Positions 9,460-28,262 of a DNA stretch of 64,000 bases are shown in pieces (positions within the stretch are counted from its first letter, which is position 1; each line of letters opens with the position of its first letter). The position numbers and the translations under genes are program-made. The stretch spans positions 248,001 to 312,000 of the forward strand of contig NZ_JARWAC010000009.1 in NCBI RefSeq assembly GCF_029846175.1, given 5' to 3'. Origin of the DNA: Sphaerisporangium sp. TRM90804. GTDB taxonomy: Bacteria > Actinomycetota > Actinomycetes > Streptosporangiales > Streptosporangiaceae. The notes under the pieces were generated by a model, which worked only from the letters and a program-made list of their open reading frames with translations, was not told the DNA's origin and made no database searches.

Positions 9460-10146
9460 TCATGACGGGTCGCCTCGGCCGGGCTCCTCGCCGGCGTCCG
9501 CCGGCCAGATCGTCACGCCCGTCGTGGCGGAGGCCGCCAGGTCGGCCGGGGTGTCGGTCACGGTGGAGGCCGACAGCGTGGGGTGCAGGGCGACGACCAG
9601 CCGGTGCTCGCGCCCGCCGGGGGCGTCGTGGTCGTGGTAGCGCGCCACCAGGGACGTCACCGTCTCTGCCAGCTCGGCGGCGAACGCCGCCCGGTCGGCC
9701 GCCGAGGCGAACCGCACCTGGCCGTCGACGGCGAACGTGGCCACCCGCTTGCCGGCGCCGGAGGCCCCGGCGAGCAGCTCGCCCACCTCGCGCACCAGCC
9801 GCGAGGCCACCGCGAGCAGCCACCGGGCCGACAGGCGGTCGGGGGCGTGCGCCGGGTCGGGCTGCAGGGCCGCCAGCACCCGGGGGGAGATGACGTAGGA
9901 GGCCGCGGTCGCCCGCATGACCCGCTCGACCATCGCGCCCTTGCGCCGCCGGCCCACCAGCTCGACCAGGCCGTGTCGCTCCAGGGCGCCGATGTGGTAG
10001 TTCACCTTCTGCCGCGCGAGGCCCACCCGCTCGGCCACCGCCGCCGCCGAAGCCGGCCGCGCCAGCTCGGCGAGCAGGCGCGCGCGCACCGGATCCATGC
10101 AGACTTCCGCCGCCGCCGGGTCCTCGATCACCGCAACTTCGAACAT
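9460..10146 (-). CDS. ArsR-like winged-helix regulator of SRPBCC genes
   Basis: A 228-aa protein with an N-terminal winged-helix domain of the ArsR/HTH_20 type (DPVRARLLAELARPASAAAVAERVGLARQKVNYHIGALERHGLVELVGRRRKGAMVER) and a longer C-terminal domain of unknown role. The start ATG 10146 follows a promoter with TTGACA and a -10-like GACCGT only 6 bases before the ATG, implying a leaderless transcript. A CCGACAACT/AGTTGTCGG inverted repeat straddles this promoter and is shared with two SRPBCC genes 16-17 kb away, so this protein is the likely autoregulated repressor of the group. ArsR-type regulators paired with SRPBCC genes are common in actinobacteria; the ligand is unknown. Confidence 0.85.
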   Translation of the reverse strand: MFEVAVIEDPAAAEVCMDPVRARLLAELARPASAAAVAERVGLARQKVNYHIGALERHGLVELVGRRRKGAMVERVMRATAASYVISPRVLAALQPDPAHAPDRLSARWLLAVASRLVREVGELLAGASGAGKRVATFAVDGQVRFASAADRAAFAAELAETVTSLVARYHDHDAPGGREHRLVVALHPTLSASTVTDTPADLAASATTGVTIWPADAGEEPGRGDPS

Positions 10147-10161
10147 GAGTCAACGGTCTCA

Positions 10162-10199
10162 CCGACAACTTTTTTTGTCAAGCCTATTCGAGTTGTCGG
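10162..10199 (-). promoter_or_regulatory. Autoregulatory promoter/operator of the ArsR-like gene
   Basis: Read on the minus strand, TTGACA (-35) is followed after 17 bp by GACCGT (-10), with TTGTCGG inside the spacer. The arms CCGACAACT and AGTTGTCGG form a perfect 9-bp inverted repeat whose 7-bp cores start 31 bp apart (10162 and 10193). The same spacing recurs at 26212/26243 and, in weaker form, 27390/27421. Binding would cover the -35 element and spacer and block transcription. Confidence 0.75.
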
Positions 10200-10291
10200 C
10201 TGAGCGGTTCTTTCGCGAGGTCCCCGGTCGGCGGGCGTCCGGCGGCTCCGCCCACCGGCCTGCGAACGGTGCGGTGCGGTAGACATACGCC

Positions 10292-10834
10292 ATGCGCCCT
10301 GAACCCGGACAGGTGTTGCACTTCTCCGAGGACCCGACGATCACCCGGTTCGTCCCGCACGTGGCGGCCACCGCGCGGCAGCCGGCGGCGTACGTATGGG
10401 CCGTCGACCACGCGCGAGCGCCCGACTACTGGTTTCCCCGCGCCTGCCCGCGGGCGATGGCCTGGTGCTTGCCCACGACGTCGGCGGCCGACCGGCGCCA
10501 CATATTGGGCCCCGGAGGCGGCGAGCGCGTCCACGCGATCGAGTACGCCTGGGTCGGCAGGCTGCTCGACGTCCGGTTGTTCGCCTACCGGCTCCCCGCG
10601 GCCCCGTTCACGCCCTTCGGCGGACCGGACTCGCACGCGGTCGTCGCCACCGAGCCGGTCGAGCCCCTCGGCCCGCCCGAACCGGTCGGCGACCTGCTCC
10701 GGTTGCACGACGACGCCGGCATCCAGCTGCGGGTGCTCGACAACCTGTGGGGGTTCTGGGACGCCGTGACGGCCGGCACGCTGGGCTTCAGCGGCATCCG
10801 CCTGCGGAACGCCCGGCCTCGGCCGGGCGGCTGA
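10292..10834 (+). CDS. Conserved hypothetical protein (DUF6886-like)
   Basis: A 180-aa protein beginning PEPGQVLHFSEDPTITRFVPHVAATARQP, with YVWAVD, PRAMAW and VHAIEYAWV segments. These match my recollection of a widely conserved bacterial family annotated as DUF6886; the identification cannot be checked here. No signal peptide, membrane segment or catalytic motif is apparent. It is divergent from the ArsR-like gene, with its start about 93 bp from the operator, but the TTGACA promoter there points away from it. Function unknown. Confidence 0.7.
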   Translation: MRPEPGQVLHFSEDPTITRFVPHVAATARQPAAYVWAVDHARAPDYWFPRACPRAMAWCLPTTSAADRRHILGPGGGERVHAIEYAWVGRLLDVRLFAYRLPAAPFTPFGGPDSHAVVATEPVEPLGPPEPVGDLLRLHDDAGIQLRVLDNLWGFWDAVTAGTLGFSGIRLRNARPRPGG

Positions 10835-10909
10835 ACGCCGCCCTACGCCCAGCGGTGAATTCGTCAGGCCACCTTGACGTCAGATCGTCTTGACGCGAGC
10901 GTGGACGGC

Positions 10910-11341
10910 ATGGTCACCCCTGACGATCTCGAGAAGCGATTCACGCTGCTGACCGCCGTCGGCCGCTACGACACCCTGCGAACCCGCGACGCGCTGGCCT
11001 CCGCCGCCGCGCAGGAGGACCTCGGGCCCGGCATGCCCGAGCCCGACGCGCCCCCGCTCACCGAGCAGGAGGCCCTGGAGCTCCTGGCGCTGGGCGAGGT
11101 GCTGGTCCGCAAGGCCGCCTACGGACGCCAGCTCGCCGTGCGGTCGGCGCGTGCCGCCGGCGCCTCGTGGGCGCAGATCGGCGCGGCCCTGGGCACCACC
11201 AAGCAGGCCGCCTGGGAGGCGCACGGCCGCTGGATCGACGACCAGGCCGAACAGTACCGCCGCAGCGGCTACGAGGGCTTCGACGCGCACGACACCGCCG
11301 CCGCCCGCGCACTCGCCGGAGACCCCGAGACCCCCGCCTGA
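10910..11341 (+). CDS. Hypothetical protein with HTH-like segment
   Basis: A 143-aa acidic protein. The segment RSARAAGASWAQIGAALGTTKQAAWEAHGRW near residues 84-114 looks like a helix-turn-helix of the type found in small actinobacterial DNA-binding proteins ('SWxxIGxALGxTKQAA'). ATG 10910 is preferred; upstream in-frame GTG 10901 and TTG 10874 are alternatives, and none has a strong ribosome binding site. No partner gene is evident. It may be a small regulator or nucleoid-associated protein, but this is inference. Confidence 0.7.
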   Translation: MVTPDDLEKRFTLLTAVGRYDTLRTRDALASAAAQEDLGPGMPEPDAPPLTEQEALELLALGEVLVRKAAYGRQLAVRSARAAGASWAQIGAALGTTKQAAWEAHGRWIDDQAEQYRRSGYEGFDAHDTAAARALAGDPETPA

Positions 11342-11342
11342 C

Positions 11343-11552
11343 CCCCGCCGCGCGGATCTCCTCGGCGGGGCCGGCCGTCCTCGCTCAGCCGAGGCCGCGC
11401 CGCCGTCCGTCAGACACCGGCCCGGCTGGACGGCCGAGCCGGCACCTTGGACACCCCGCCCGACCCCGCCGCGCGGACTGCTTGGGCGGGGCCGGCCGTT
11501 CCTGGCTCAGCCGAGGCCGCGCCGCCGTCCGTCAGACACCGGCCCGGCCGGA
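11343..11552. repeat. Tandem 89-bp repeat at the 3' end of the MFS gene
   Basis: Copies at 11343-11431 and 11464-11552 (offset 121 bp) share long stretches, e.g. GGCGGGGCCGGCCGT and CTCAGCCGAGGCCGCGCCG…GTCAGACACCGGCCCGGC, with only a few mismatches. The second copy includes the stop codon and last codons of the MFS gene, so the first copy is a duplicated gene end now lying downstream. Confidence 0.8.
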
Positions 11553-13013
11553 GGGCCGGGCCGGCGCCCCGGACGGCCGGGCCGGCGCACCGGGCGGGGC
11601 CTGGGCGGTCGGGGTGCGCAGGACGGCCAGGGTTGCGATCAGGGCGGCGACGATGAGGCCGGTGCCGGCGGCGAAGGCCAGCCGGAAGCCGCCGGTCAGG
11701 GCGTCGGCCGGGGGCCGGCCGGCCGCCAGCAGCTCGCCGGTGCGCGAGGCCGCCAGCGCCGACAGCACCGCCAGGCCCAGCGCTCCGCCCACCGCCTGGG
11801 TGGTGTTGAACAGCCCCGAGGCCAGCCCCGCGTCGCCGGGCGTGGCGCCCGACATGGCCAGCGAGGTCAGCGCCGGGATCGCCAGCCCGAAGCCGCCGAT
11901 GAGCAGCATCACCGGCAGCAGGTGCGCCAGGTAGCGGCCGTCGACGGGCAGGCGGGTGAGCAGGCCCAGCGCCACCAGCAGGAGCCCCAGGCCCGCCAGC
12001 AGCACCGCCCGCTCCCCGAAGCGCGCGGTCAGCCGGGCCGACAGGCCCAGCGAGGCCACCCCGATGACCAGCGCGGCCGGCAGCATGGCCAGGCCGGTGC
12101 CCGCGGCCCCGTACCCGAGCACCTGCTGCGCGTACAGCGCCACCAGCACCTGGAAGCCGAACAGGGCCGAGACCATGAAGACCTGGACGAGGTTGGCGCC
12201 CCACACCGCGCGTGGGCGCAGCACCCGCGGCGGAAGCAGCGGCGCGGCGATCCGGGCCTGGCGGACGGCGAAGGCCGCGAGCAGCGCGAGCGCCAGCGCG
12301 CCCAGCCCGAGGGTGCGCGCCGACGTCCAGCCGTGGCGGGCGGTCTCCACGATGGTGAACACCCCCAGCGTCAGCCCGGAGGTGACCAGGATCGCGCCGG
12401 GCGCGTCGGCCCCGGCGCGGAGCCCGGCGCCGCGGTCGGGGGCGAGCACCCGCACGGCCAGCAGGGCGGCGGCCAGCCCGATCGGCAGGTTGATCAGGAA
12501 GATCCAGTTCCAGGCGAGGGCCTGGGTGATCACGCCGCCGAGCACCAGGCCGAGGGAGGCTCCCGCGGCGCCGACGAAGCTGAACGCGCCGACCGCCCTG
12601 GCCCGCTCGCCCGGCTCGGGGAACAGCGTCACGATCATGCCGAGGCTGACGGCGGAGGCCATCGCGCCGCCCGCGCCCTGCAGGAACCGGGCCGCCACCA
12701 GCGTGGCCGGGTTCGGGGCGATCCCGCACAGCGCCGAGGCGGCGGTGAACAGGGCCAGGCCGGCGACGAACAGCCGCCTGCGGCCGAGCAGGTCGCCCAG
12801 GCGTCCGGCCAGCAGCAGCAGCCCGCCGAAGGGGACCATGTAGGCGTTCACCGTCCAGGGCAGGTCGGCGGCGGAGAAGCCGAGGTCGCGCTGGATGGCG
12901 GGCAGCGCGACCGTCACGATGCTGCCGTCCAGGATGATCATCAGCATGCCGGCGCAGAGCACGACGAGCGCGAGCGTGCGCGACCGGCCGGGCGGCGGGA
13001 CGGGGTGTGACAT
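11532..13013 (-). CDS. MFS drug-efflux transporter (DHA2, EmrB/QacA family)
   Basis: A 493-aa membrane protein with about 14 predicted transmembrane helices, the DHA2 layout. Motifs seen: LDGSIVTVALPAIQRDLG in TM1, GRLGDLLGRRR in the first cytoplasmic loop (motif A), FLQGAGGA and SLGLVLGG (antiporter motif C region). ATG 13013 has GGAGG 9 bases upstream. It probably exports small hydrophobic toxic compounds by proton antiport. It is divergent from an HxlR-family gene (start 13096) with a CACA-TCG-TGTG palindrome between them, so HxlR control is likely. The Pro/Ala-rich C-terminal tail overlaps the 89-bp tandem repeat and may be a repeat-derived extension. Confidence 0.92.
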   Translation of the reverse strand: MSHPVPPPGRSRTLALVVLCAGMLMIILDGSIVTVALPAIQRDLGFSAADLPWTVNAYMVPFGGLLLLAGRLGDLLGRRRLFVAGLALFTAASALCGIAPNPATLVAARFLQGAGGAMASAVSLGMIVTLFPEPGERARAVGAFSFVGAAGASLGLVLGGVITQALAWNWIFLINLPIGLAAALLAVRVLAPDRGAGLRAGADAPGAILVTSGLTLGVFTIVETARHGWTSARTLGLGALALALLAAFAVRQARIAAPLLPPRVLRPRAVWGANLVQVFMVSALFGFQVLVALYAQQVLGYGAAGTGLAMLPAALVIGVASLGLSARLTARFGERAVLLAGLGLLLVALGLLTRLPVDGRYLAHLLPVMLLIGGFGLAIPALTSLAMSGATPGDAGLASGLFNTTQAVGGALGLAVLSALAASRTGELLAAGRPPADALTGGFRLAFAAGTGLIVAALIATLAVLRTPTAQAPPGAPARPSGAPARPSGRAGV

Positions 13014-13051
13014 GGCTGCGGACCTCCAATGGTGCACGACTTGTTACAGGG

Positions 13052-13062
13052 CACATCGTGTG
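13052..13062. promoter_or_regulatory. Candidate HxlR operator (CACA-TCG-TGTG)
   Basis: A short perfect inverted repeat, CACA-TCG-TGTG, lies centrally in the 82-bp divergent region between the MFS pump and the HxlR gene. Winged-helix HxlR dimers bind sites of this size; the assignment is inference. Confidence 0.4.
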
Positions 13063-13095
13063 TGACCATGTGGGTCGGCGGAAGGAGGCACTTTC

Positions 13096-13506
13096 TTGTC
13101 CCAGGGGAACAGCGATGTGACACCGCAGCTCGCGGCGCTGGACGAGATCTGTCCTGTGGTGGAGGTCATCAACCGGGTCAGCGGCAAGTGGAGCATCGGC
13201 ATCCTGGTCGCGACCGCCAAGGGGCCGATCCGGTTCACCGAGCTGGAGCGCACGGTCAAGGGCATCAGCCGCCGCATGCTCACCCTCACCCTGCGCAACC
13301 TCGAACGCGACGGCCTGCTGGTGCGCACCGTCCACCCCACCGTGCCGCCCAAGGTCGAGTACACCGCCACCGAGATGGCCCGCGAGCTGTACGAGTCGCT
13401 GGTCACGCTGACGGCCTGGGCCGAGCGCAACCAGCCCGCCATAGCCGCCGCCCGGCAGGCCTACGACCACGGCGCCGCCCCCGCGGCGAAGTCCTCCTCC
13501 CGCTGA
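13096..13506 (+). CDS. HxlR-family winged-helix regulator
   Basis: A 136-aa protein with the HxlR signature: CPVVEVINRVSGKWSIGILVATAKGPIRFTELERTVKGISRRMLTLTLRNLERDGLLVR followed by the wing and VEYTATEMARELYESLVTLTAWAER. The start is TTG 13096, supported by an exact AAGGAGG 7 bases upstream; no ATG or GTG fits better. HxlR proteins respond to electrophiles, redox stress or drugs. It is transcribed away from the MFS gene and is the probable repressor or activator of that pump. A second MFS gene follows 270 bp downstream on the same strand. Confidence 0.9.
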   Translation: MSQGNSDVTPQLAALDEICPVVEVINRVSGKWSIGILVATAKGPIRFTELERTVKGISRRMLTLTLRNLERDGLLVRTVHPTVPPKVEYTATEMARELYESLVTLTAWAERNQPAIAAARQAYDHGAAPAAKSSSR

Positions 13507-13765
13507 CACCCCGCGCCGCCGTCCGGCCGGGTCCCCGGCCTGGTAGCCGTCTACCGGGACTCCGACCCTCTGCGGCCGCCGCCCGGCCGGCCGCCCGCGC
13601 GGCGGCGTGGTGGCCTCGTGCCGTGACGGGCGGCGGGCGCGGCTGCGCCTGAGCGGGGACGTCGCGGTCCGGTCAGCGGACGGTGCGCCGGTGGTGCGGG
13701 GACGGTCAGCGCCCTGGCCCAGGCTGCGGGCAGACGACATCTCGCAGCGGGCGAAGGAGCTTGAA

Positions 13766-13783
13766 ATGGCGGACCCGGCATGA
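13766..13783 (+). CDS. Five-codon leader minicistron overlapping the MFS start
   Basis: ATG GCG GAC CCG GCA TGA encodes MADPA. It has AAGGAG 6 bases before its ATG, while the MFS start codon has no close ribosome binding site of its own; the minicistron stop overlaps the MFS ATG as ATGA (13780-13783). This arrangement suggests translational coupling or a leader-peptide control of the pump. Whether the peptide has any role is unknown. Confidence 0.5.
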   Translation: MADPA

Positions 13784-15363
13784 GCGACACCACCATCACC
13801 GCGGGGCGCAAAGAGTGGATCGGGCTGGCCGTGCTCGTGCTGCCCTGCCTGCTGGTCTCGATGGACATCAGCGTGCTGTTCTTCGCGGTGCCCTTCATCA
13901 GCGCCGACCTGCGGCCGACCGGCACCGAGCAACTGTGGATCATGGACGTCTACGCGTTCGTGCTGGCCGGAATGCTGATCACCATGGGGGCCCTCGGCGA
14001 TCGGGTCGGGCGGCGGCGGCTCCTGCTGATCGGCGGCGCGGCGTTCGGAGCCGCCTCCCTGCTGGCGGCCTACTCCACCAGCGCGGAGATGCTGATCCTC
14101 ACCCGGGCCCTGCTCGGCCTGGCCGGGGCGACGCTGATGCCCTCCACGCTGGCCCTGATCCGCAACATGTTCCCCGACCCGGCCCAGCGCAAGACGGCCA
14201 TCGCCCTGTGGACGGCGGGCATGACCAGCGGCGCGATCGTGGGGCCCATCGTCGGCGGGTTCCTGCTGGAGCACTTCTGGTGGGGGTCGGCGTTCCTGGT
14301 CAACGTGCCCGCCATGGTGCTGCTGCTGGTGTGCGGCCCGCTGCTGCTGCCGGAGTTCCGCGCCCCGAGCGCCGGGGCCTTCGACCTGATGGGCGCCGTG
14401 CTGTCGCTGGCGGCCGTCATCGCGGTGATCTACGGGATCAAGCAGACGGCCGTGGACGGGGCCGGCGTCACCCCGCTGGCCGTCCTGCTCGCCGGCCTGG
14501 CCGCCGGAGCGCTGTTCGTCGCCAGGCAGCGCCGGCACCCGGCTCCGCTGGTCGACCTGACCCTGTTCCGCCACCGCGCCTTCGGCGGCGCGCTGGCCGT
14601 CAACGTGATGACGCTGTTCGGCTTCGTGGGGATCACGTTGTTCACCAGCCAGTACATGCAGCTCGTGCTCGGCCTCACCCCCTTCGCCGCCGCGCTGTGG
14701 TCGATCTCCGTGTTCCCGGGGATCGCGGGCGCGATCGCCCTGTCGGGCGTGATGGCCGCGCGTGTCCGCCCGGCCTACGTCCTGGGGACGGGTCTGCTGG
14801 TCACCGTGGCGGGGCTGCTGGTGCTGACCCAGCTGCGGACGGGCTCGCCGCTGGGGATGCTGCTGGTGGGAGCGGCCCTGGTGGCGGCGGGCATCGTGAT
14901 GGCCTCAACCCTGACAGCCGACCTCATCCTGACGGCCGCGCCGCCCGAGCGGGCAGGGGCCGCCTCGGCGATGTCGGAGACCGGCAGCGAGCTGGGCGGT
15001 GCGCTGGGGCTGGCCATCCTGGGCAGCGTCGGCGCCGCCGTCTACCACCACCGGATGGCCGACGTGCTGGCGGCCGCCCCGCTGACCGGCGTGTCACCCG
15101 AGGCGCTGCGGGCGGCCGAGGACACCCTGGGCGGCGCCGCCGCCGTGGCCGCCGGACTTCCCGGCCAGGCCGGGGCCGCCATGCTGCGGGCCGGGCAGGA
15201 GGCCTTCACCCAGGGCCTGAACCTCGCCGCCGCGGCCGGAGCCGTCCTGCTGGCGGCCACCGCCGTGGCGACGATGATCGCCCTGCGCGCCGTGCCCCGC
15301 AGCGCGCGCCCCGCCGGCCAGGACGCCCCCGCCCCGCCCCCCGTCCCACTGCACGGCCGATGA
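13780..15363 (+). CDS. MFS transporter, DHA2 family
   Basis: A 527-aa protein with about 14 transmembrane helices. TM1 reads LLVSMDISVLFFAVPFIS, followed by motif A GALGDRVGRRRLLLIGG and the antiporter motif GAIVGPIVGGFLL. It is of the QacA/SmvA type that exports cationic or hydrophobic drugs. Translation seems to depend on the overlapping MADPA minicistron. It is a second DHA2 pump in 4 kb, on the same strand as the HxlR gene and possibly also under its control. The C-terminal PAPPPVPLHGR tail overlaps a duplicated 3'-end sequence. Confidence 0.92.
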   Translation: MSDTTITAGRKEWIGLAVLVLPCLLVSMDISVLFFAVPFISADLRPTGTEQLWIMDVYAFVLAGMLITMGALGDRVGRRRLLLIGGAAFGAASLLAAYSTSAEMLILTRALLGLAGATLMPSTLALIRNMFPDPAQRKTAIALWTAGMTSGAIVGPIVGGFLLEHFWWGSAFLVNVPAMVLLLVCGPLLLPEFRAPSAGAFDLMGAVLSLAAVIAVIYGIKQTAVDGAGVTPLAVLLAGLAAGALFVARQRRHPAPLVDLTLFRHRAFGGALAVNVMTLFGFVGITLFTSQYMQLVLGLTPFAAALWSISVFPGIAGAIALSGVMAARVRPAYVLGTGLLVTVAGLLVLTQLRTGSPLGMLLVGAALVAAGIVMASTLTADLILTAAPPERAGAASAMSETGSELGGALGLAILGSVGAAVYHHRMADVLAAAPLTGVSPEALRAAEDTLGGAAAVAAGLPGQAGAAMLRAGQEAFTQGLNLAAAAGAVLLAATAVATMIALRAVPRSARPAGQDAPAPPPVPLHGR

Positions 15364-15490
15364 CCGCCCCCGGCGCGGGCCGGCACCCCGTCCACGCGCC
15401 GCCCCGCCGTCCGGGGGCGACCGCCGGCGGCGGGCCGGCATCCCGTCCACGCGCCGTCCCACTGCCCGGCCGGTGAGCGCGCCCCCGGCC
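15344..15490. repeat. Duplicated 3' end of the MFS gene
   Basis: GTCCCACTGCACGGCCGATG at 15344 (the last codons and stop of the MFS gene) recurs as GTCCCACTGCCCGGCCGGTG at 15459, 115 bp downstream; between them GGCCGGCACCCCGTCCACG and GGCCGGCATCCCGTCCACG repeat as well. This is a decayed tandem duplication of the gene end. Confidence 0.75.
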
Positions 15491-15647
15491 GCCGGCCCTG
15501 CGCCGCCCGCCCTCCGGGGTGACGGCGCCCCGGTGCCGGCCCGGCCTCCCGGGTCGCCGGTATCCGGGTGGTAACCGGGCACCCGGCTAGCATCCGGCGA
15601 TGAACCGACAGCCGAGCGGGACCGCCGCGCGCATCCAGGAGGAGCCG

Positions 15648-16097: not shown

Positions 16098-16125
16098 GCG
16101 ACCGCGCCGCCGTCGTGCCCGGGAC

Positions 16126-20935: not shown

Positions 20936-21266
20936 TCCACCCGCGCGACCGGATGACGGCGCCCCGGCTGCCCGGCACCCCTACCGGCCGGTGTATGGGG
21001 GACGATTTCTTGATCGTCTTCGGGTGGTTGCCCATACCATGGTCGGTGGCCGGGCTCGTCCCGCCTGGTCGTGCCGCCGGTGGCGGTGCTCGACCGGCGG
21101 CTCCCCCGGGCGGCCGGTCCGGGCGTCGGCCCGCCGCGACCCCTTCGGAGCTCTCACCGCGTTCGTGTCACCGTCCCGATCCCACCGCCGGCCCGTGCCG
21201 AGCCCTCGGCCCTCGCGGGCTCCCCACTCGTGTGCCGGCCCCGTCCCCCACGTGAAAGGACCCGCA
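20936..21266. other. Intergenic region upstream of the GDSL esterase
   Basis: No gene is visible in 331 bp. A possible promoter is TTGATC at 21010-21015 with TACCAT at 21035-21040 (19-bp spacing, longer than ideal). The GTG start downstream uses GAAAGGA at 21254-21260, identical to the ribosome binding site of the VIT gene. Confidence 0.5.
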
Positions 21267-22592
21267 GTGCGCTCACCTCGACTTCACGCGCTGTTATCGA
21301 GCGTCGCGGCGGCGCTGGCCCTGGCCACCGCGCTGGCCGTCCCCTCCTCCGCCTCGGTGCGGGCCGACGCCCGGCAGGCGGCCCCCTCCGGCGCCGCGCA
21401 GGCCGCCGGGCACGGCTCCAAGGGCTGGACGGGCACCTGGGCCACCTCCCCGCAGGGCCCGCTGGTCTTCTTCCCGGGCGCCCCCAGCAACTGGTCGCTG
21501 ACCGGGTTCTCCGGCGAGACCGTCCGGCAGGTGGTGCGGATCAGCGTCGGCGGCGCCCTGGCCCGCGTCCGGCTGTCCAACCGGTACGGCTCCCAGCCGC
21601 TGCGCGTCGCCGGGGCGACGGTCGCCAAGGCCGGCGACGGCGCGGCGATCCTGCCCGGCACCGTGCGCCCGCTGCGGTTCGGCCGCTCGGCCTCCACGAC
21701 GATCCCGGCCGGCGCCGACGCCACCTCCGAGCCGGTGGCGCTGGCCACCGCGCCGCTGGACAGGCTCACCGTCACCCTGTACTTCGCCGAGCCCACCGGC
21801 CCGACCACCTTCCACTACACCGGGCTGACCACCACCTACCGCGCCGCCGGAGACCACCGGTTCGACCGCGGCGCCGCGGCGTTCGCCGGTGAGACCAGCC
21901 AGTCGTGGTACTACCTGACCGGCGTGGACGTCCTGGGCGGCCCGCGCCCGGCCAAGGGCGCGGTGGTCGCCTTCGGCGACTCCATCACCGACGGCGCGGA
22001 CTCCACGGTCGGCGCCGACAACCGCTACCCCGACGAGCTGGCCGAACGCCTGGTGGCCGCCCGCAAGCGCATCGGGGTGCTCAACGCCGGCATCGGCGGC
22101 AACATGGTGCTCACCGACTCGCCGTGCTACGCCGGCTACGCGGGCGTCAACCGCTTCGCCGCCGACGCGCTCGACCTGCCGGGAGTGCGCACCGCGATCG
22201 TGCTGGAGGGCATCAACGACATCGGCAGCGCCGGGTACGACCTGGGCTGCGGCCCGCACCCGGCGGTCACCTACGAGCAGCTCGTCGAGGGCTACCGCAC
22301 CCTGATCCGCGCAGCGCACGCCCGCGGCGTCAAGATCATCGGAGCAACGATGACGCCGCTCAAGGGCGCGGACTTCTACGACACCCCCGAGAACGACGCG
22401 CTGCGCAAGCGGCTCAACGACTGGATCCGCACCAGCGGGGAGTTCGACCTGGTGGTCGACCTCGACCGCGCCCTGGGCGACCCCGGGGACCGCGACAGGT
22501 TGTACCCGCCGTACGCGTCGCCCGACAAGATCCACCCCAACGACGCCGGCATGAGGGCCATCGCCGAGGCCGTCGACCTGTCGACCCTGTGA
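21267..22592 (+). CDS. Secreted SGNH/GDSL-type esterase
   Basis: A 441-aa exported hydrolase. GTG 21267, supported by GAAAGGA 6 bases upstream, gives a clean signal peptide (LLSSVAAALALATALAVPSSASV) with cleavage near Ala-Ser-Val. After an N-terminal beta-rich domain (GWTGTWATSPQGP…), the SGNH hydrolase domain shows block I GDSITDG, block III NAGIGGNMVL, block with GINDIG, and block V DKIHPND carrying the catalytic Asp and His. This architecture is common in actinomycete secreted esterases acting on acylated polysaccharides or lipids; the substrate is unknown. A perfect hairpin terminator follows the stop. Confidence 0.93.
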   Translation: MRSPRLHALLSSVAAALALATALAVPSSASVRADARQAAPSGAAQAAGHGSKGWTGTWATSPQGPLVFFPGAPSNWSLTGFSGETVRQVVRISVGGALARVRLSNRYGSQPLRVAGATVAKAGDGAAILPGTVRPLRFGRSASTTIPAGADATSEPVALATAPLDRLTVTLYFAEPTGPTTFHYTGLTTTYRAAGDHRFDRGAAAFAGETSQSWYYLTGVDVLGGPRPAKGAVVAFGDSITDGADSTVGADNRYPDELAERLVAARKRIGVLNAGIGGNMVLTDSPCYAGYAGVNRFAADALDLPGVRTAIVLEGINDIGSAGYDLGCGPHPAVTYEQLVEGYRTLIRAAHARGVKIIGATMTPLKGADFYDTPENDALRKRLNDWIRTSGEFDLVVDLDRALGDPGDRDRLYPPYASPDKIHPNDAGMRAIAEAVDLSTL

Positions 22593-22602
22593 GCCGTCCC
22601 CC

Positions 22603-22624
22603 GGCCGTCCGAGCCCGGACGGCC
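22603..22624 (+). terminator. Hairpin terminator after the GDSL gene
   Basis: GGCCGTCCG-AGCC-CGGACGGCC is a perfect 9-bp stem with a 4-base loop, 10 bp after the esterase stop. No T tract follows. Confidence 0.75.
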
Positions 22625-22959
22625 GGGGCCCGGCGTCGGTGACCGCGAGCCCCGGCCACGCCGGGGATCCGCGGCGGCGGCCCGCCCAGGGGCCCGGCCG
22701 AGGACGGGCGGGCCGCGGGGAAGGGGGGCGCCCGGCGCTCCCGGGGTACCCCGCGCCCACCTGCGCGGGCACGGCGCGCCGGCCTGGCCGGTCGCCGCCG
22801 GCCGGGCCGCGGCCCGGCCGTGCGCAGCGCGCTGACCGCGCCCTTCCCCCTTTCGCGGCGCCCGTCCGCCGTGCCCGCATGGGAGGGCGACCTAGAGCTC
22901 CGGGAAGATGAGGGGGCCCGAAAACGGCAGGTCAAGCCCGAACACCACCGAACATTGTC
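22625..22959. other. Intergenic region before the beta-propeller gene
   Basis: No gene is visible. Most of the stretch is extremely GC-rich; composition becomes more balanced after 22900 (…CAAGCCCGAACACCACCGAACATTG), where the promoter of the next gene lies. Confidence 0.5.
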
Positions 22960-22971
22960 TAGAGTTTCGAC
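22960..22971 (+). promoter_or_regulatory. -10 element of a leaderless promoter
   Basis: TAGAGT (22960-22965) is followed by six bases and then GTG 22972. This -10 to start-codon spacing is the signature of leaderless actinobacterial mRNAs, and no Shine-Dalgarno sequence precedes the GTG. A -35 hexamer is not obvious. Confidence 0.5.
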
Positions 22972-23877
22972 GTGCCGATGAACGCGAACGACCCGCGGGT
23001 CGCCCTGCCGCCGCTCAATCCGGACCGATCGGTCCTCGTAGTCGGGCCGTCAGTCGACGAGCCCGGCCACTGGGCCGGCGCGCCCAGCTGCGTCTACAGC
23101 GAGGGCGTGTTCTACCTCGCCTACCGCCTTCGCCGTCCCATCGGCCAGGGCCGGGGCCACTCGATCGTCGTCGCCCGTTCCACCGACGGCGAGCGCTTCG
23201 AGACGATCTACACGCTGGGGCGCGAGGAGGTCGACGCCGAGTCCCTGGAGCGTCCCGCGCTGGTGCGCACCCCCCAAGGCGTCTGGCGGCTCTACGTCAG
23301 CTGCGCCACCCACGGCACCAAGCACTGGCGCGTCGAGGTCATGGAGGCCGCCGACCCCGCGGCGTTCGACGCCACCCGGCGCCAGGTCGTGCTGCCCGGC
23401 GATCCCAAGACCGGCGTGAAGGATCCCGTGATCGTGTGGCAGGGCGGGCTGTGGCACCTGTGGGCGTCCTGCCACCCGCTGGAGCGCCTCGGCGAGGAGG
23501 ACCAGATGGTCAGCGACTACGCCACCAGCGCCGACGGCATCGACTGGACGTGGCACGGCACCGCCCTGAGCGGCCGCCCCGACTGCTGGGACTCCCGAGG
23601 CGCCCGGGTGTCCGCCGTGGTGTTCAGCGGAGAGACGATCCTGGCCGCTTACGACGGGCGGGCCAGCGCCGCCGAGAACTACGAGGAGCGCACCGGGCTC
23701 GCCGCCGGCACCGATCCGTCCACCCTCACCCCGCTGGACACCGAGCCGTTCGCCGCCTCCCCGCACGGGGGCCTGCGCTACCTGGACGTCGTGGCCCTGC
23801 CCGACGGCGGCACCCGCGTGTACTACGAGCTCACCAAGCGCAACGGCGCCCACGAGCTGCGCACCGAACTGCGCTGA
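22972..23877 (+). CDS. Five-bladed beta-propeller protein of glycosidase type (GH43-like fold)
   Basis: A 301-aa protein without signal peptide. Repeated blade-like segments, e.g. PSCVYSEGVFYLAYRLRR, HSIVVARSTDGERFETIYTL, GVWRLYVSCAT, KDPVIVWQGGLWHLWASCH, DYATSADGIDWTWHGTAL and TRVYYELTKRNGAHELRTEL, resemble the 'D(G)xxW…Y…S.DG.' blades of GH43/GH32-type propellers. Acidic residues that could be catalytic are present but cannot be assigned with certainty, so hydrolase activity is inference. The GTG start is chosen because of the leaderless -10; an ATG two codons later is an alternative. No sugar transporter or regulator is adjacent. Confidence 0.72.
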   Translation: MPMNANDPRVALPPLNPDRSVLVVGPSVDEPGHWAGAPSCVYSEGVFYLAYRLRRPIGQGRGHSIVVARSTDGERFETIYTLGREEVDAESLERPALVRTPQGVWRLYVSCATHGTKHWRVEVMEAADPAAFDATRRQVVLPGDPKTGVKDPVIVWQGGLWHLWASCHPLERLGEEDQMVSDYATSADGIDWTWHGTALSGRPDCWDSRGARVSAVVFSGETILAAYDGRASAAENYEERTGLAAGTDPSTLTPLDTEPFAASPHGGLRYLDVVALPDGGTRVYYELTKRNGAHELRTELR

Positions 23878-23900
23878 CCACCAAGCCGGGCGCCCGGCCC

Positions 23901-23975
23901 GGGCCGGACGGCCACGCGTCACGCCGGGCCGGACGGCCACGCGTCACGCCGGTGCGGACGGCCGCGCACCGCCCC
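23901..23975. repeat. 25-bp tandem repeat, 2 perfect copies plus 1 degenerate
   Basis: The 25-bp unit beginning GGGCCGGACGGCCACGCGTC is repeated exactly at 23901-23925 and 23926-23950; 23951-23975 is a degenerate third copy. It lies just after the propeller gene stop. There are no spacers, so it is not a CRISPR array. Confidence 0.85.
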
Positions 23976-24112
23976 CGGCCGGGCCGGCGCGCGGTCGTCT
24001 GTCGCGCGCCCGCTCCCCCCGTCCCCCGAGCGAAGGCGTCGGTTCCGTACGCGGGTGGGGGCTTTGCCGTTCGCGTTCGGGCTTGCCCTGTCGCTATAAG
24101 CCTTTTCCACCC

Positions 24113-24141
24113 TTATTACCTACAAGGTCAGTGGGTATGAT
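24113..24141 (+). promoter_or_regulatory. Promoter of the sulfotransferase gene
   Basis: TTATTA (24113-24118), a 17-bp spacer and TATGAT (24136-24141) form a plausible vegetative promoter in a locally AT-richer stretch, 34 bp upstream of the ATG. Confidence 0.55.
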
Positions 24142-24174
24142 GACCGGCGATGTCGTCTCGGCCGAGGAGAGCTG

Positions 24175-25176
24175 ATGGGCCTGCCGGAATTCCTGGTGAT
24201 CGGAGCCCCGAAGGCGGGCACCACGGCCCTGCACGCGGCGCTCGCCCGCCATCCGGACCTGTTCATGTCGCCGGTCAAGGAGCCGAAGTTCTTCCTCACC
24301 GACGGGCCTCCCCCCACGCGCGGCGGCCCCGGTGACGCGCAGACCTACCGGGAGCACGTCTGGCGCCGCGCCGACTACGAGGCGCTGTTCGACGCCGCAC
24401 CGGCCGGGGCCGTCAAGGGCGAGTCCACCCCGTTCTACCTGTACGACCGCGAGGCCCAGCGTCGCATCCACGCGCTGGTGCCCCAGGCCAGGCTGATCGT
24501 GATGCTGCGCGACCCGGTCGAGCGCGCGCACTCCAACTGGACGCATCTGTGGTCGGCCGGGCTGGAGCCGATCAGCGACGTGGTGCGGGCGTGCGCGGAG
24601 GAGGAGCGGCGCATCGCGGCGGGCTGGTCGGCCTTCTGGCACTACGTCTCGCTCGGCCGGTACGGCGAGCAGCTGGAGCACCTGTTCCGGCTGTTCCCGC
24701 GCGAGCAGGTGCTGACCATGCGCTATCGCGAGCTGGTGGACGCGCCGACGGCCACGCTCGACCGCATCTGCGCGTTCCTCGGCGTGCGGCAGGGGATGGT
24801 CGAGGAGGTGCCGCGCGAGAACGTCACCGCCCACCCCGAGCGGACGCTGCGCCACCAGGCGCTGTCGCGGGTGCTGCGGGTGGGCGCCGGGATGGGACGC
24901 CATCTGCCGGGCTCGCTGGCCGCGCGCCTGGTCGAGCCGCTGGAGAGCGCGCTGCAGGAGCGGGGCCGCCCGCGCAGGTCGCTGAGCTGGGAGCAGCGCC
25001 AGGCGCTGCTGCCGCACTTCGAGAAGGACGTCGTGCTGCTCGGCCAGGTCACCGGCCAGGACTACAGCGACTGGCTGCGCCCCCGCGACCGGTCGGGCGG
25101 GCTGATGGGAGACCGCCCCTCGGGCCAGCGTCAGGCCCGCAACGGCCGCCCGCGCAAAGCCGGCGGCACGGCGTAG
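24175..25176 (+). CDS. Sulfotransferase-domain protein
   Basis: A 333-aa cytosolic protein. The N terminus FLVIGAPKAGTTALHAALARHP carries the 5'-phosphosulfate-binding loop (PKAGTT at residues 12-17), and LIVMLRDPVERAHSNWTH carries the 3'-phosphate-binding motif of PAPS-dependent sulfotransferases (heparan-sulfate/NodH-like group). YRELVDAPTATLDRICAFLG is the conserved C-terminal segment. It would transfer sulfate from PAPS to a carbohydrate, lipid or small-molecule hydroxyl. GGAGAG precedes the ATG. No glycosyltransferase or PAPS synthase is nearby, so the acceptor cannot be guessed. The C-terminal 40 residues are basic and probably disordered. Confidence 0.9.
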   Translation: MGLPEFLVIGAPKAGTTALHAALARHPDLFMSPVKEPKFFLTDGPPPTRGGPGDAQTYREHVWRRADYEALFDAAPAGAVKGESTPFYLYDREAQRRIHALVPQARLIVMLRDPVERAHSNWTHLWSAGLEPISDVVRACAEEERRIAAGWSAFWHYVSLGRYGEQLEHLFRLFPREQVLTMRYRELVDAPTATLDRICAFLGVRQGMVEEVPRENVTAHPERTLRHQALSRVLRVGAGMGRHLPGSLAARLVEPLESALQERGRPRRSLSWEQRQALLPHFEKDVVLLGQVTGQDYSDWLRPRDRSGGLMGDRPSGQRQARNGRPRKAGGTA

Positions 25177-25215
25177 GCGACGCCGAAGCCGGGCGGGGCG
25201 GCGCCTCGGGCCGGA

Positions 25216-25362
25216 GCCGTTCGGCAGAGGTGAACCCCGGCGGGAGACGGCTCCGACGATCACCGGGGTTACCCGCCGGTGCCGCCCCGGGGGTCTGCGG
25301 TTCCGCTGCCGGGCCGTTCGGCGGACGGGCCCCGGCGGCAGAGGGCTTCGCCGATCACCGGG
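25216..25362. repeat. Decayed direct repeat with hairpin potential between convergent genes
   Basis: GCCGTTCGGC… at 25216 and 25313 begin two related units of about 50 bp, each ending in GATCACCGGGG (25258 and 25352). In the first unit AACCCCGG and CCGGGGTT can pair to form a hairpin, a possible bidirectional terminator for the sulfotransferase and SRPBCC genes. Confidence 0.6.
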
Positions 25363-25396
25363 GCGGTCCGGCGATCGGCGGGCCGGCGGGCGGGGA

Positions 25397-26143
25397 TCAG
25401 GCGAACGCCTGGGCCATCCAGGACTGCCAGGCGGGCTCGATCTTGTCGTCGGTCTCCGGGGAGAAGCCGTGGTACTCCACGAGCACGGTGTCCTGGTGTC
25501 CGTGGATGAACACGTACAGCCCGTCGCCGGTGCGCACCCCGAGGAAGTCGGGGCGGTAGGCGAACTGGACGACCCCGTCGACGGGGGTGATGCCGTTCAC
25601 CTGAAGGCGCACCCTGTCGCCCTCGGCGACCGCGCCGGTGGCCCCGACGGCGTGGGTGAACGCCTGCCACACCCGCTCCTGGCCGGGCACCTGCGGGCCG
25701 ACCGCGAAGACGTTGAAGGTGGAGGTTCTGCCGGGGAAGTGCTCCACGTAGGCGGCGAGCTTGCGCAGGTACATGCCGTCGCCCTTGCGCAGCGCGTCGT
25801 ACTCGGCCTCCCAGTCGCCGCCGAGCATGCCGCTGTGGACGAACCGCAGCACGGTGGAGCCGCCGTCGCGCCCCTCCAGGAGGTATTCGAAGGCCATGAA
25901 CGCGCCCTCGGCGTCCTCGGCGGTGCGGTAGGCGAATCGGCGCGCGGGGTCGTAGGCGGTGATGGTGGCCTCGCTGGTGTGGCCCATGAGGGTCTGGCGC
26001 GTGGTGCCGCCCTCGCGTGGCTCGACCTCGTTGCGGCCCATGAACCAGGAGTCGATGCCCGGGCCGGTCGCGATGGCCTGCCACACCTGCTCCGGCGTGG
26101 CCTCCAGCACGATCTCCTCGCGTACCTCGAACTCGTGCGGCAT
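25397..26143 (-). CDS. SRPBCC (AHSA1-like) two-domain protein
   Basis: A 248-aa paralogue of the SRPBCC proteins at 7.3, 8.7 and 27.5 kb. N-terminal START-like domain: FEVREEIVLEATPEQVWQAIATGPGIDSWFMGRNEVE, FMAFEYLLEGRDGGSTVLRFVHSGML. C-terminal domain: VRLQVNGITPVDGVVQFAYRPDFLGVRTGDGLYVF…AWQSWMAQAFA. ATG 26143 follows AAGGGG. Its promoter carries TTGACA-N17-CAGGGT and the CCACCGACAA/TTGTCGGTGG inverted repeat shared with the ArsR-like gene, so repression by that regulator is likely. The biochemical role is unknown; the family includes stress-related and ligand-binding proteins. Confidence 0.85.
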   Translation of the reverse strand: MPHEFEVREEIVLEATPEQVWQAIATGPGIDSWFMGRNEVEPREGGTTRQTLMGHTSEATITAYDPARRFAYRTAEDAEGAFMAFEYLLEGRDGGSTVLRFVHSGMLGGDWEAEYDALRKGDGMYLRKLAAYVEHFPGRTSTFNVFAVGPQVPGQERVWQAFTHAVGATGAVAEGDRVRLQVNGITPVDGVVQFAYRPDFLGVRTGDGLYVFIHGHQDTVLVEYHGFSPETDDKIEPAWQSWMAQAFA

Positions 26144-26208
26144 GTCGGATCCCCTTCGTCTCGGTGCCGAGCGGGCGACACCGCCGTGTGCGAACAGGCG
26201 CAACCCTG

Positions 26209-26252
26209 CCACCGACAAAGATTGCTGTCAAGGAGCAAGTAGTTGTCGGTGG
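26209..26252 (-). promoter_or_regulatory. ArsR-type operator and promoter of the SRPBCC gene
   Basis: CCACCGACAA (26209-26218) and TTGTCGGTGG (26243-26252) form a perfect 10-bp inverted repeat; the 7-bp cores start 31 bp apart, exactly as upstream of the ArsR-like gene. On the minus strand TTGACA lies between the arms and a -10-like CAGGGT follows after 17 bp, with TTGTCGG inside the spacer. Confidence 0.75.
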
Positions 26253-26818
26253 GGCGGGCGGGATCGCGCCCCCCTTCCCGGGCCGCCATTCCGGCCGGCG
26301 ATAGCGGGCGCCAGACGGGCGCGGGCTTCCAATATAGGCCGCCGACCTGCGGATTCACCGGGGACGGCGCGCGTTCGGAGTGGTTCGCCCCTCCTTCCCG
26401 GGGCGATGGCCGGGCGCGCTCGATAGGACCATCCGGGCGGCGACCCCCTCCCCCGCGCCGGACTATCGCCCGGCGCCCGGCGTCTAGGGGTGCCCCATCA
26501 TCTTGTCGATCACTATTCATCCCTCCAAGCGGTGCCGGCCCGCCCGCCATCGACACCTCGTCATGCCCCTGACCAGGGACAACGCCGCTCGCGCGTGCGG
26601 CGCGCCGCCGCCGGCCGGGCCGTTCGGACACCGGGACGGCCCGGCCCGATAACGCGATCACAATGCCGCGGAAAGCGATTCGATAAGCGCTATCGCCAAA
26701 ACCCCTTAAGGGCTTAGCGGCTCGGAAGCACGCCGATAGAGACCCCTCATACCTTCGTAATTGCGAGCAGGGAAACGCCGCAAACAAAAGAAATCGAAGG
26801 AAAAAGGGGTCAATCAAA
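26253..26818. other. Long non-coding stretch, less GC-rich toward its right end
   Basis: No gene is visible in 566 bp. From about 26650 base composition drops and short symmetric motifs appear: CGATAAGCGCTATCG near 26690 and the perfect palindrome CCCTTAAGGG at 26703-26712, about 110 bp before the small ORF. These may be regulatory for that ORF. The right end holds its ribosome binding site (AAGGAAAAAGGGG). Confidence 0.5.
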
Positions 26819-27010
26819 ATGATGCGTATCGCCAAGAACATCGCCGCCCGGACCGCCATCGTCACCCTCGTCGCCGCCGGTGGGGCTGCTGGTTGCGGAA
26901 CCATGCTGGCGCAGCAGGACTCGGCGAAGCCCGTAGTCAGCTCGGTGAACGCATGGGCCCCCGCCGCCCCCGTCGCGGCCGACCTCAACGGCGACCAGCC
27001 CTGGGGCTGA
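26819..27010 (+). CDS. Small secreted peptide or lipoprotein
   Basis: A 63-aa product: short basic N terminus (MMRIAKNIAARTA), hydrophobic core (IVTLVAAGGAAG), then Cys in AAGC, a weak lipobox, and a 37-residue hydrophilic tail ending DLNGDQPWG. The start has a purine-rich AAGGAAAAAGGGG upstream and an exceptionally strong terminator about 90 bp after the stop, so this is a discrete transcription unit. If Cys is lipidated the product is a membrane-anchored peptide; if not, signal cleavage would release a peptide of about 35 residues. No processing, transport or immunity gene is adjacent. Family not recognised. Confidence 0.65.
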   Translation: MMRIAKNIAARTAIVTLVAAGGAAGCGTMLAQQDSAKPVVSSVNAWAPAAPVAADLNGDQPWG

Positions 27011-27389
27011 CCTTCATGGACCGGCCTCACACCCCGCACACGGCCTGAGCTGACGCTCCGGCCGCTTGCGGCGTTTCCCTGGTTTTCTGAATAGGAACAA
27101 ACGAAAAGGCGTATCGCGGAGACCCCCCGCGATACGCCTTTTCATCGTTTATCGAGAATCACGGAAACACCGGGGCGGCGTCATGCCGTCGGCGCGGGCG
27201 TCGCCCCTGTCCCGCCGGCGATGGCCCGCCATCGCCGGGCCGCGCGGCGGGCGCCGGATCCCGTCGATCCCGTCGATCCCCTCGCGCCTCCCCGAACGAG
27301 CCGGCCCCGGTGATCACCGCGCCGCCGTGAGCACCGGGGGCACCCGATCACCACCCGGCGCGCGACCGCCTCCCGTGAAGTCCGCCCAA
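27011..27389. other. Region between small peptide gene and SRPBCC promoter
   Basis: No gene is visible apart from the terminator at 27103-27143. The short tandem GATCCCGTCGATCCCGTCGATCCC (unit of 9 bp, near 27257) is the only other regularity. Confidence 0.5.
27103..27143. terminator. Strong bidirectional intrinsic terminator
   Basis: GAAAAGGCGTATCGCGG (27103-27119) and its exact complement CCGCGATACGCCTTTTC (27127-27143) form a perfect 17-bp stem with a 7-base loop. A-rich and T-rich flanks make it work in both directions. It ends the small-peptide transcript. Confidence 0.9.
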
Positions 27390-27435
27390 CCGAACACAGG
27401 TTCCTCCTTGACAAGAAAAGTTGTCGGTGCGACCG
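27390..27435 (+). promoter_or_regulatory. ArsR-type operator and promoter of the third full-length SRPBCC gene
   Basis: CTTGACAAGAAAAGTTGTCG begins at 27407 and is identical, but for one base, to the minus-strand sequence upstream of the ArsR-like gene. TTGACA-N17-GACCGT is the promoter, with TTGTCGG (27421-27427) in the spacer. The upstream mate is degenerate (CCGAACA at 27390-27396) but sits at the same 31-bp offset. Confidence 0.72.
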
Positions 27436-27518
27436 TAGAGGCACGTTCGCAGACGGTGATCGGCGAACCGGCGAGTCCGGCGGCACACCGGCCGGATGGT
27501 TCATGGAAGGAGAGTGAA

Positions 27519-28262
27519 GTGACTCATCGTTTCGAGCTGCGCAAGCAGATCGAGTTGAAGGCCGGCGCCGAACAGGTCTGGCAGGCTGTCGCGACCGGGC
27601 GTGGCGTGGACTCGTGGTTCATGGGCCGCAACGAGATCGAGCCGCGCCTGGGCGGGGTGACCCGCCAGTGGTTCGGCGGGTTCCCGGTGGAGGCGAGCGT
27701 CACGGCGTGGGAGCCGCCCCGCCGGTTCGCGCACCGCAGCCAGCAGGGCGACGACGGCACGTTCATGGCGTTCGAGTACCTCGTCGAGGCCCGCGACCAG
27801 GGCGGCACGGTGCTGCGCCTGGTGCAGAGCGGGGTCCTCGGCGACAACTGGGAGGCCGAGTACGACGCCCTGAGCCGGGGCTGGGACATGTACCTGCACA
27901 CCCTGGACCAGTACCTGACCCACTTCCCCGGCAGGACCGCGGTCCCGGTGTTCGCCGCCAGGCCGCACGGGGGCGGAGACGAGCCGGCCTGGACGGTGCT
28001 CGACCGCGGCCTCGGGCTCAGCGGCGAGCCGATCGCCGAGGGTGACCGGGTGCGCCTGACGCCCGACGGCCTGCCCCCCGTCGAGGGCATCGCCGACTAC
28101 GTGGCGCCCGACTTCCTGGGCATCCGCACCCCGGACGCCCTCTACCGGTTCGTCCAGGGCATGAACCAGACGATCGTGGTCCAGCACCACGTCTTCGCCG
28201 ACGTCGACGCCAAGGAAACGGAGCAGGCCTGGCAGAACTGGCTGACCAAACTGTTCGCCTGA
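27519..28262 (+). CDS. SRPBCC (AHSA1-like) two-domain protein
   Basis: A 247-aa paralogue: FELRKQIELKAGAEQVWQAVATGRGVDSWFMGRNEIE, TFMAFEYLVEARDQGGTVLRLVQSGVLG, GWDMYLHTLDQYLTHFPG, then VRLTPDGLPPVEGIADYVAPDFLGIRT and AWQNWLTKLFA. It is the closest match to the truncated copy at 8742-9137 (GWDMYLHTLDQYLTHFPG identical, similar C terminus). The start is GTG 27519 with GGAAGGAGAG upstream. Promoter and operator match those of the ArsR-like regulator gene. A hairpin terminator follows. Function unknown; the shared N-terminal motif WFMGRNE is a good family tag. Confidence 0.85.
   Translation: MTHRFELRKQIELKAGAEQVWQAVATGRGVDSWFMGRNEIEPRLGGVTRQWFGGFPVEASVTAWEPPRRFAHRSQQGDDGTFMAFEYLVEARDQGGTVLRLVQSGVLGDNWEAEYDALSRGWDMYLHTLDQYLTHFPGRTAVPVFAARPHGGGDEPAWTVLDRGLGLSGEPIAEGDRVRLTPDGLPPVEGIADYVAPDFLGIRTPDALYRFVQGMNQTIVVQHHVFADVDAKETEQAWQNWLTKLFA

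Follow-up and report, generated by a model that had tools for sequence, protein, structure and literature searches.

The window analysed here is a stretch of 64,000 bp from Sphaerisporangium sp. TRM90804 (contig NZ_JARWAC010000009.1, positions 248,001 to 312,000; coordinates below count from its first base), in which an ArsR-like winged-helix gene and two genes for two-domain SRPBCC proteins share one promoter motif. The reading favoured by us, at a probability of about 0.8, is that an ArsR-like repressor clade controls a small detoxification regulon covering the three window promoters, where repressor dimers would bind the motif and be released by a ligand. It builds on the motif, its phase, its association with ArsR genes and the recurring gene classes behind it, all of which are observed in the sequence. 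Because the motif recurs before the repressor gene and before recurring detoxification-like genes in other actinomycetes, the findings point to a genuine control circuit that has apparently gone undescribed.

Window genes and their shared promoter

An initial annotation of the window had reported three full-length SRPBCC genes, a C-terminal SRPBCC half and an ArsR-like gene. At three promoters it had described TTGACA, a 17-bp spacer holding TTGTCGG, −10 hexamers of the form (G/C)A(C/G)(C/G)GT (here GACCGT, CAGGGT and GACCGT), a CCGACAA mate at a distance of 31 bp (degenerate at the third promoter) and a 23-bp stretch that two of the sites (1 and 3) have in common but for a single mismatch. All of these elements were recovered, the arrangement CCGACAA-N24-TTGTCGG being exact at 10162–10199 and 26212–26249 and carrying 2 mismatches at 27390–27427. 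The feature was confirmed to be real and correctly spotted, and its reach is wider than first stated. The window features are as follows.

9460–10146, minus strand: ArsR-like (HTH_20) winged-helix gene of the putative repressor, 228 amino acids; Pfam HTH_20, E = 3.8e-13
10153–10199, minus strand: predicted operator/promoter 1, with CCGACAA box at 10193–10199, core TTGACAAAAAAAGTTGTCGG at 10162–10181 (TTGACA = −35), extended −10 TG and −10 GACCGT at 10153–10158
26203–26249, minus strand: predicted operator/promoter 2, with CCGACAA box at 26243–26249, core TTGACAGCAATCTTTGTCGG at 26212–26231 and −10 CAGGGT at 26203–26208
27390–27436, plus strand: predicted operator/promoter 3, with degenerate box CCGAACA at 27390–27396, core TTGACAAGAAAAGTTGTCGG at 27408–27427 and −10 GACCGT at 27431–27436
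27443–27483, plus strand: untranslated leader whose alignment with the window ArsR gene keeps register over roughly that gene's first 40 bp; probably what is left of a lost ArsR gene
25397–26143, minus strand: two-domain SRPBCC (AHSA1) protein, 248 amino acids, predicted target with operator upstream; Pfam AHSA1, E = 1.5e-12
27519–28262, plus strand: two-domain SRPBCC (AHSA1) protein, 247 amino acids, predicted target; Pfam AHSA1, E = 2.3e-11; structure model with a predicted local distance difference test (pLDDT) score of 95.9
8742–9137, minus strand: SRPBCC C-terminal half, 131 amino acids, in operon position 3' of the ArsR gene; 63% identity with the 27519 protein across 129 residues
7278–8243, plus strand: two-domain SRPBCC paralogue, 321 amino acids, without operator and outside the predicted regulon; Pfam AHSA1/Polyketide_cyc2

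Occurrence of the motif and association with the ArsR clade

Searching the window only, at up to 3 mismatches, gave 5 matches versus 2.35 expected, which is not significant, and across the whole genome the loose core, with 2 mismatches or fewer allowed, was not enriched (29 matches versus 26 in the control). The exact core, TTGACA-N7-TTGTCGG, was found in five copies in the 8.3 Mb genome, of which the window has three and contigs C8 and C19 one each, and the core combined with the −10 element gave 8 matches at 0–3 mismatches versus 0 in the control. Sites on other contigs are located as follows.

Contig C8, exact core: 5' of a QepA/LfrA-like major facilitator superfamily (MFS) gene
Contig C19, exact core: 5' of a second ArsR gene, with 72% identity to that of the window
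Contig C46, 1 mismatch: 5' of a RibD_C reductase gene
Contig C5 (L048 6557–8121), 3 mismatches, degenerate and doubtful site TTGACAGTTTTTCTTGTCTA: 5' of a 47%-identical ArsR gene adjoining an AHSA1-like gene

Where a local regulon had been proposed around the four-member SRPBCC family, the distribution of sites points to a genome-wide regulon that includes the second ArsR gene and the MFS and RibD_C genes on other contigs, with the 7278 SRPBCC gene outside it. The C5 locus may represent a sister circuit with cross-talk to the main one. Another match with 3 mismatches, C8:163936, was taken as noise.

The main comparison set comprised 200 genomes of the same family. The exact core was present in 81 of them, with 140 sites versus 5 control matches, and an ArsR orthologue was detected in 79 of the 81 motif genomes versus 11 of the 119 others (Fisher 1e-40). 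Orthologues were called at a threshold of E 1e-25 with at most 14 candidate stretches scored per genome, so that the family ArsR counts are lower bounds; 115 of 134 ArsR rows were used, the 19 left out being weak paralogues or C-terminal fragments, which removes genomes G004, G058, G068 and G112 with weak matches only and no motif. Of the 140 sites, 71 have the core 15–20 bp 5' of the aligned ArsR start, which makes ArsR its commonest neighbour. A motif search in the genome and its relatives had been suggested as a check in the initial annotation, and its outcome, five exact copies in the source genome and the family excess over control, is not that of random placement; both the motif-to-start distance and the classes of the downstream genes are far from random.

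If the motif were simply a common promoter type, composed of a −35 and a favoured spacer, no operator would need to be assumed. Part of the conservation is indeed promoter signal, as the sites combine TTGACA, a 17-bp spacer, TGn and a −10 with conserved A/T positions. This explanation is nevertheless highly improbable: an exact match occurs in just 81 of the 200 family genomes and, in 79 of these, together with one particular ArsR; the composite search of the own genome stood at 8 versus 0; and neither TTGTCGG in the spacer nor CCGACAA at −18 is a promoter element.

Among 44 ArsR genes without the exact motif, 14 were examined, and 12 of these had a site with 1–2 mismatches 13–16 bp 5' of the start; of the other two, L187 carried the upstream site alone and L180 none. 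A second set, overlapping the family set, was formed by the best 80, by score, of at least 579 ArsR loci, from Streptosporangium, Amycolatopsis, Saccharothrix, Micromonospora, Rhodococcus, Streptomyces, Lentzea, Jiangella, metagenome-assembled genomes of Solirubrobacterales and others. A site at up to 2 mismatches was found in 76 of these 80 loci (37 exact), 74 of the 76 lying 15–16 bp from the start; the loci short of the limit were L203, L228, L229 and L230. Three loci bear two labels (L178/L262, L179/L268 and L187/L203) and count once each. In a phylum sample of 159 genomes, the core with TG occurred in 2, both ArsR-positive, and ArsR in 13. Taken together, it is strongly supported by these comparisons that the shared operator belongs to the ArsR-like gene and its clade.

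Anatomy of the predicted operator

The core comprises 20 bp, TTGACAA-N6-TTGTCGG, lying over the −35 and the spacer, and CCGACAA is an additional half-site fixed 18 bp upstream. Aligning 79 distinct ArsR promoters on the start codon alone, with no motif imposed, gave the consensus CCGACAA...gTCTTGACAA...TTTTCGGTGnGAcGgT...CATG, in which 8 weakly conserved positions separate CCGACAA from gTC; TTGACAA comes next, then a stretch rich in A/T, TT(T or G)TCGG, TGnGAcGgT and CATG. In 76 of 133 sites, a CCGACAA box with up to 1 mismatch stands at offset −18; elsewhere between −50 and −7, no single offset has it more than 3 times. The per-base conservation of the box among exact sites is 60–88%, and some exact sites in the family genomes are without it.

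The TG 3' of TTGTCGG and A/T at −10 positions 2 and 6 are conserved among sites and look like an extended −10. With a 17-bp spacer and an extended −10, the transcript would start on the ArsR ATG, and the position of the motif 15–20 bp 5' of the aligned ArsR start at about half of the family sites likewise makes a leaderless mRNA probable. In the window ArsR gene, the distance from the end of TTGTCGG to the ATG is 15 bp, with matching spacing in its orthologues, and the gene is probably leaderless and autoregulated.

We infer from this arrangement that the operator consists of two abutting dimer sites, A (CCGACAA-N6-NNGTC) and B (TTGACAA-N6-TTGTCGG), which meet at the −35. This division is backed by natural variants: the ArsR promoters L262 and L268 from two Streptosporangium carry the perfect 20-bp palindrome CCGACAAGAAAGATTGTCGG alone, CCGACAA-N6-TTGTCGG, without a TTGACA −35, whereas that of L203 (Thermocatellispora) has the upstream CCGACAA-N6-TTGTC alone. 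The operator could instead be a single 38-bp two-arm site, CCGACAA-N24-TTGTCGG, with TTGACA serving only as a −35, as the strong conservation of the outer arms and their distance of 31 bp (about three turns) might suggest. We regard this as rather unlikely. Arms 31 bp apart are too distant for a single winged-helix dimer, the A at position 7 of TTGACAA is conserved at 86%, box-less sites occur, and the inner palindrome and the upstream one are each found alone in the variants above. The shared ArsR operator of the initial annotation is upheld by comparative genomics (79 of 81 genomes, 71 of 140 sites), and its two arms are replaced by at least three half-sites.

The ArsR-like protein

An ArsR-fold winged-helix domain is present in the window protein: HTH_20 scores over its cut-off, and the structure model has blocks with average pLDDT of 80–96 in residues 11–80. 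Its nearest solved folds are 4g6q, 1uly/2cwe and 6j05, with 1smt among the matches. The recognition-helix residues R45, Q46, K47, N49 and H51 (R-Q-K-x-N-x-H) are invariant in 59 aligned rows, in which no cysteine falls in an invariant or nearly invariant column. None of the NCBIfam metalloregulator models reached its cut-off for the window ArsR, NF033788 scoring 24 bits versus a cut-off of 55. The label "ArsR-type" fits the DNA-binding domain, and the protein is probably not metal-sensing. Coevolution of the protein with the TTGTCGG/TTTTCGG variant was also inspected; the best column, V76 (P 3e-5, uncorrected and with phylogeny not removed), lies outside the recognition helix and was not used as evidence.

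Proposed mechanism

In the mechanism that we propose, two close clade members in the source genome, encoded in the window and on contig C19, would serve as repressors. Their dimers would occupy TTGACAA-N6-TTGTCGG, which spans the −35 and the spacer, and the abutting upstream CCGACAA-N6-NNGTC, so that RNA polymerase would be barred from the extended −10 promoter, from which the ArsR transcript would begin at the ATG. Release by a ligand, probably a hydrophobic small molecule instead of a metal, would switch on the repressor gene together with those for two-domain SRPBCC proteins (START/Bet v 1-like), which would bind or alter the ligand, for a reductase of the RibD_C type and for an MFS exporter. 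The induced proteins would deal with a toxic hydrophobic compound by binding it, reducing it, hydrolysing it or exporting it. Binding, repression, the dimer arrangement and the leaderless start are sequence-based predictions in this scheme, and the ligand class and the detoxification role are guesses from the protein families.

Several findings weigh against this scheme. The link between ArsR and motif is one of co-occurrence and position, and another, co-inherited regulator could read the site. In the phylum sample, the exact motif with TG was missing from 11 of the 13 ArsR genomes; two of these 11, G222 and G327, have a TGGACA/TTTTCGG variant 5' of ArsR. The fourth half-site (GTC at −3 to −1) covaries with the box weakly (P = 0.04). 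H171, H181 and H188 are nearly invariant in the 59 rows, so that a His-based metal site is conceivable. Confidence in the ArsR model is high over the winged helix only, average pLDDT being 54 in residues 81–110, 71–86 in residues 111–170 and 46–66 in the rest. Finally, the window ArsR deviates from its clade at the wing residues E66, N71 and T73, and its binding may differ from that of the C19 copy.

If a different co-occurring regulator read the site, the ArsR gene would be merely one of its targets. Association is equally compatible with this and with control by ArsR itself; even so, it is unlikely, as ArsR being the commonest neighbour of the motif (71 of 140 sites) is what autoregulation predicts, and the ArsR recognition helix is near invariant wherever the operator occurs.

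As a lineage variant, TGGACA-N7-TTTTCGGTG was found in 8 of 81 relatives of G327, with one site each and 0 in the control; the G222 and G327 sites precede ArsR. A wider regulon with the TGGACA variant was not seen among the 81 relatives.

Predicted target genes

Of the exact sites in the family genomes, 69 do not precede a retained ArsR gene; a gene was callable at 63 of them, and 6 had no called open reading frame (ORF). By BLAST to reference proteins, some of them drawn from these very sites, the 63 genes were classed as RibD_C (27), two-domain SRPBCC (8), alpha/beta hydrolase (7), QepA/LfrA-like MFS (6), FAD_binding_4 (3), ArsR fragments (3), DUF6069 (2), short AHSA1 (1), one unknown and five others. 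Class representatives were identified by Pfam, and the MFS protein of the source genome by NCBIfam. Two of the five others come from the two motif genomes without ArsR, and one is transposase-like by eye.

Identical TTGACAGGTGCCGTTGTCGG sites were observed at L130 and L139 in two genomes, the L139 site lying 5' of a gene that appears transposase-like by eye; these are probably chance matches on a mobile element.

In the best 80 of the at least 579 ArsR loci, a two-domain SRPBCC gene lies downstream on the same strand within 2.6 kb in 68, and in 61 it begins no more than about 0.8 kb from the ArsR start. These counts come from tblastn, since the gene caller was crude and had missed 17 of the 80 ArsR genes. 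In the window, only the SRPBCC C-terminal half follows the ArsR gene.

The NCBIfam models for QepA and LfrA are the best matches of the exporter encoded behind the C8 site, with 431 and 391 bits versus cut-offs of 1075 and 825; with scores this far below the cut-offs, the exporter is neither QepA nor LfrA.

SRPBCC proteins

Pairwise identity among the four window SRPBCC proteins is 43–63%. For the high-confidence model of the 27519 protein, the top Foldseek matches were DynU16 (6v04; E 2e-10, 20% identity) and BexL (4xrw). Its N-domain matched single-domain START/Bet v 1-like chains with Z up to 15.9 (3q63, 130 residues, 2.3 Å). In a second structural comparison with 6v04, the N-domain alone was aligned (Z 13.7, 134 residues, 2.7 Å), the C-terminal part being barely compared by the aligner. 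DynU16 and the aromatase/cyclase BexL are both di-domain helix-grip proteins; likeness of fold is no proof of function. Of the N-terminal motif RxxFxDGDFF given for DynU16 (PMC8488855), the three full-length window SRPBCC proteins have, by reading, only DGxF or EGxF at the corresponding position.

Upstream of the 7278 gene, no operator was found (best match 5 mismatches). Across the 7278, 8742, 10292, 11532, 13780, 24175 and 28926 genes, the best upstream match had 4–7 mismatches, the value for 10292 being the ArsR site read on the opposite strand. A Pfam scan of the longer 142-residue frame of the 8742 half gene gave no match at E 0.001. The C-terminal half stands alone in at least two genomes, at L159 and at 8742–9137 of the window, and for this reason the half gene may be functional and not debris.

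Relation to known systems

The pairing of an ArsR gene with a COG3832 (Aha1/SRPBCC) gene was described in a 2009 survey, which proposed a resistance role (PMC2701414). The features given there for the module are found here as well, namely an ArsR-like gene lacking the known cysteine motif of metal sensors, followed by an AHSA1/SRPBCC (START) partner gene, with multiple copies per genome. A defined operator, genome-wide targets, two-domain SRPBCC proteins and repressor-remnant promoters set the present system apart from the module, as far as it is described in the parts of the survey consulted. The initial annotation had not recognised the regulon and binding site from any described system. The gene pair is a described one; for the operator, the regulon and the remnant promoters, no description was found among the matches listed in the literature searched.

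A toxin–antitoxin-like module is an option raised for the ArsR–SRPBCC pair in the same survey, and a two-gene operon, a patchy distribution and multiple copies would suit it. The solo SRPBCC genes at 7278, 25397 and 27519 are, however, tolerated without a linked intact repressor, the further targets are a reductase, an exporter and hydrolases, and antibiotic resistance was judged more plausible in the passages seen of that survey (PMC2701414); we consider such a module very unlikely and detoxification the better account.

Rv2034 of Mycobacterium tuberculosis (PMC3338718) is comparable, being an ArsR-like autorepressor whose operon also encodes a Polyketide_cyc2 protein, Rv2035. Its operator, according to the portion of that report consulted, is a palindrome by footprinting, with the inverted repeat CCGTAAGT and a 4-bp spacer. 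This repeat is not matched by the 79-promoter consensus found here, TTGACAA-N6-TTGTCGG plus the CCGACAA box.

The analysis turns the 2009 gene pair, which came without a mechanism, into a testable circuit in which the repressor clade is named, the operator described base by base and the targets listed. The list (SRPBCC binder, RibD_C reductase, exporter and hydrolase) hints at the chemistry involved, and a simple reporter should allow inducer screening.

Probable remnant promoters and possible regulon growth

An ArsR-like start (TGTTC or ACGTTC) is retained in 7 of 8 SRPBCC target promoters versus 4 of 58 others (P 3e-6), by a rule that allows the echo to lie a few bases away from the expected ArsR ATG and to which ACGTTC was added post hoc, after the window sequence had been seen; leaving ACGTTC out lowers the SRPBCC count to 6 of 8. 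The 27519 leader matched the window ArsR start over about 40 bp with a score reached by 1 of 2000 shuffles; the corresponding values were 69 of 2000 for the contig C19 ArsR and 3 of 300 for the best of 80 orthologues. In view of the ArsR-like starts and the 27519 leader, some targets probably descend from ArsR–SRPBCC operons that lost the repressor. At L118 (genome G052), the operator is followed by a short ORF that is, by eye, an N- and C-terminal ArsR stub, and then by an SRPBCC gene; by eye it reads as a repressor gene caught after internal deletion.

An ArsR remnant before the 25397 gene was not significant (687 of 2000 shuffles), with a CTGTTCG echo only. A remnant of an SRPBCC N-terminus between the 8742 gene and ArsR was rejected as well: the one clear match in that orientation (SRPBCC2 92–129, E 1e-6) falls at the start of the known gene, and the other matches were weak, at E 0.01 or worse.

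In the SRPBCC tree, the 25397 protein, the 7278 protein and the 27519 protein with the 8742 half fall into three separate well-supported clades. The idea that all window copies arose from a single operon by duplication on the spot was rejected on the strength of this tree, which makes the copies three old lineages, and no recent tandem amplification is claimed.

A tentative extension, which we rate at somewhat below even odds, is that an actinomycete ArsR clade, probably metal-blind, controls a ligand-induced detoxification regulon by acting on a four-half-site operator around a leaderless promoter, and that this regulon grows when additional ArsR–SRPBCC operon copies lose their repressor gene in place, with orphan promoters answering in trans to the repressor that is left. 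If true, the system would be a natural example of regulon growth through repressor-gene loss.

Neighbouring genes

A DUF6886 gene (10292–10834, plus strand) is divergent from the ArsR gene and starts about 90 bp past the operator. A second QepA/LfrA-like MFS exporter gene lies at 13780–15363 on the plus strand (435 and 405 bits, under the cut-offs); it is kin to the C8 target exporter, yet the operator is absent (best match 5 mismatches). Between the two predicted-regulated SRPBCC genes, a 63-codon ORF with a lipobox-like AAGCG was noted by eye at 26819–27010 on the plus strand, followed 3', at about 27108–27145, by a strong hairpin and T-run that look terminator-like by eye.

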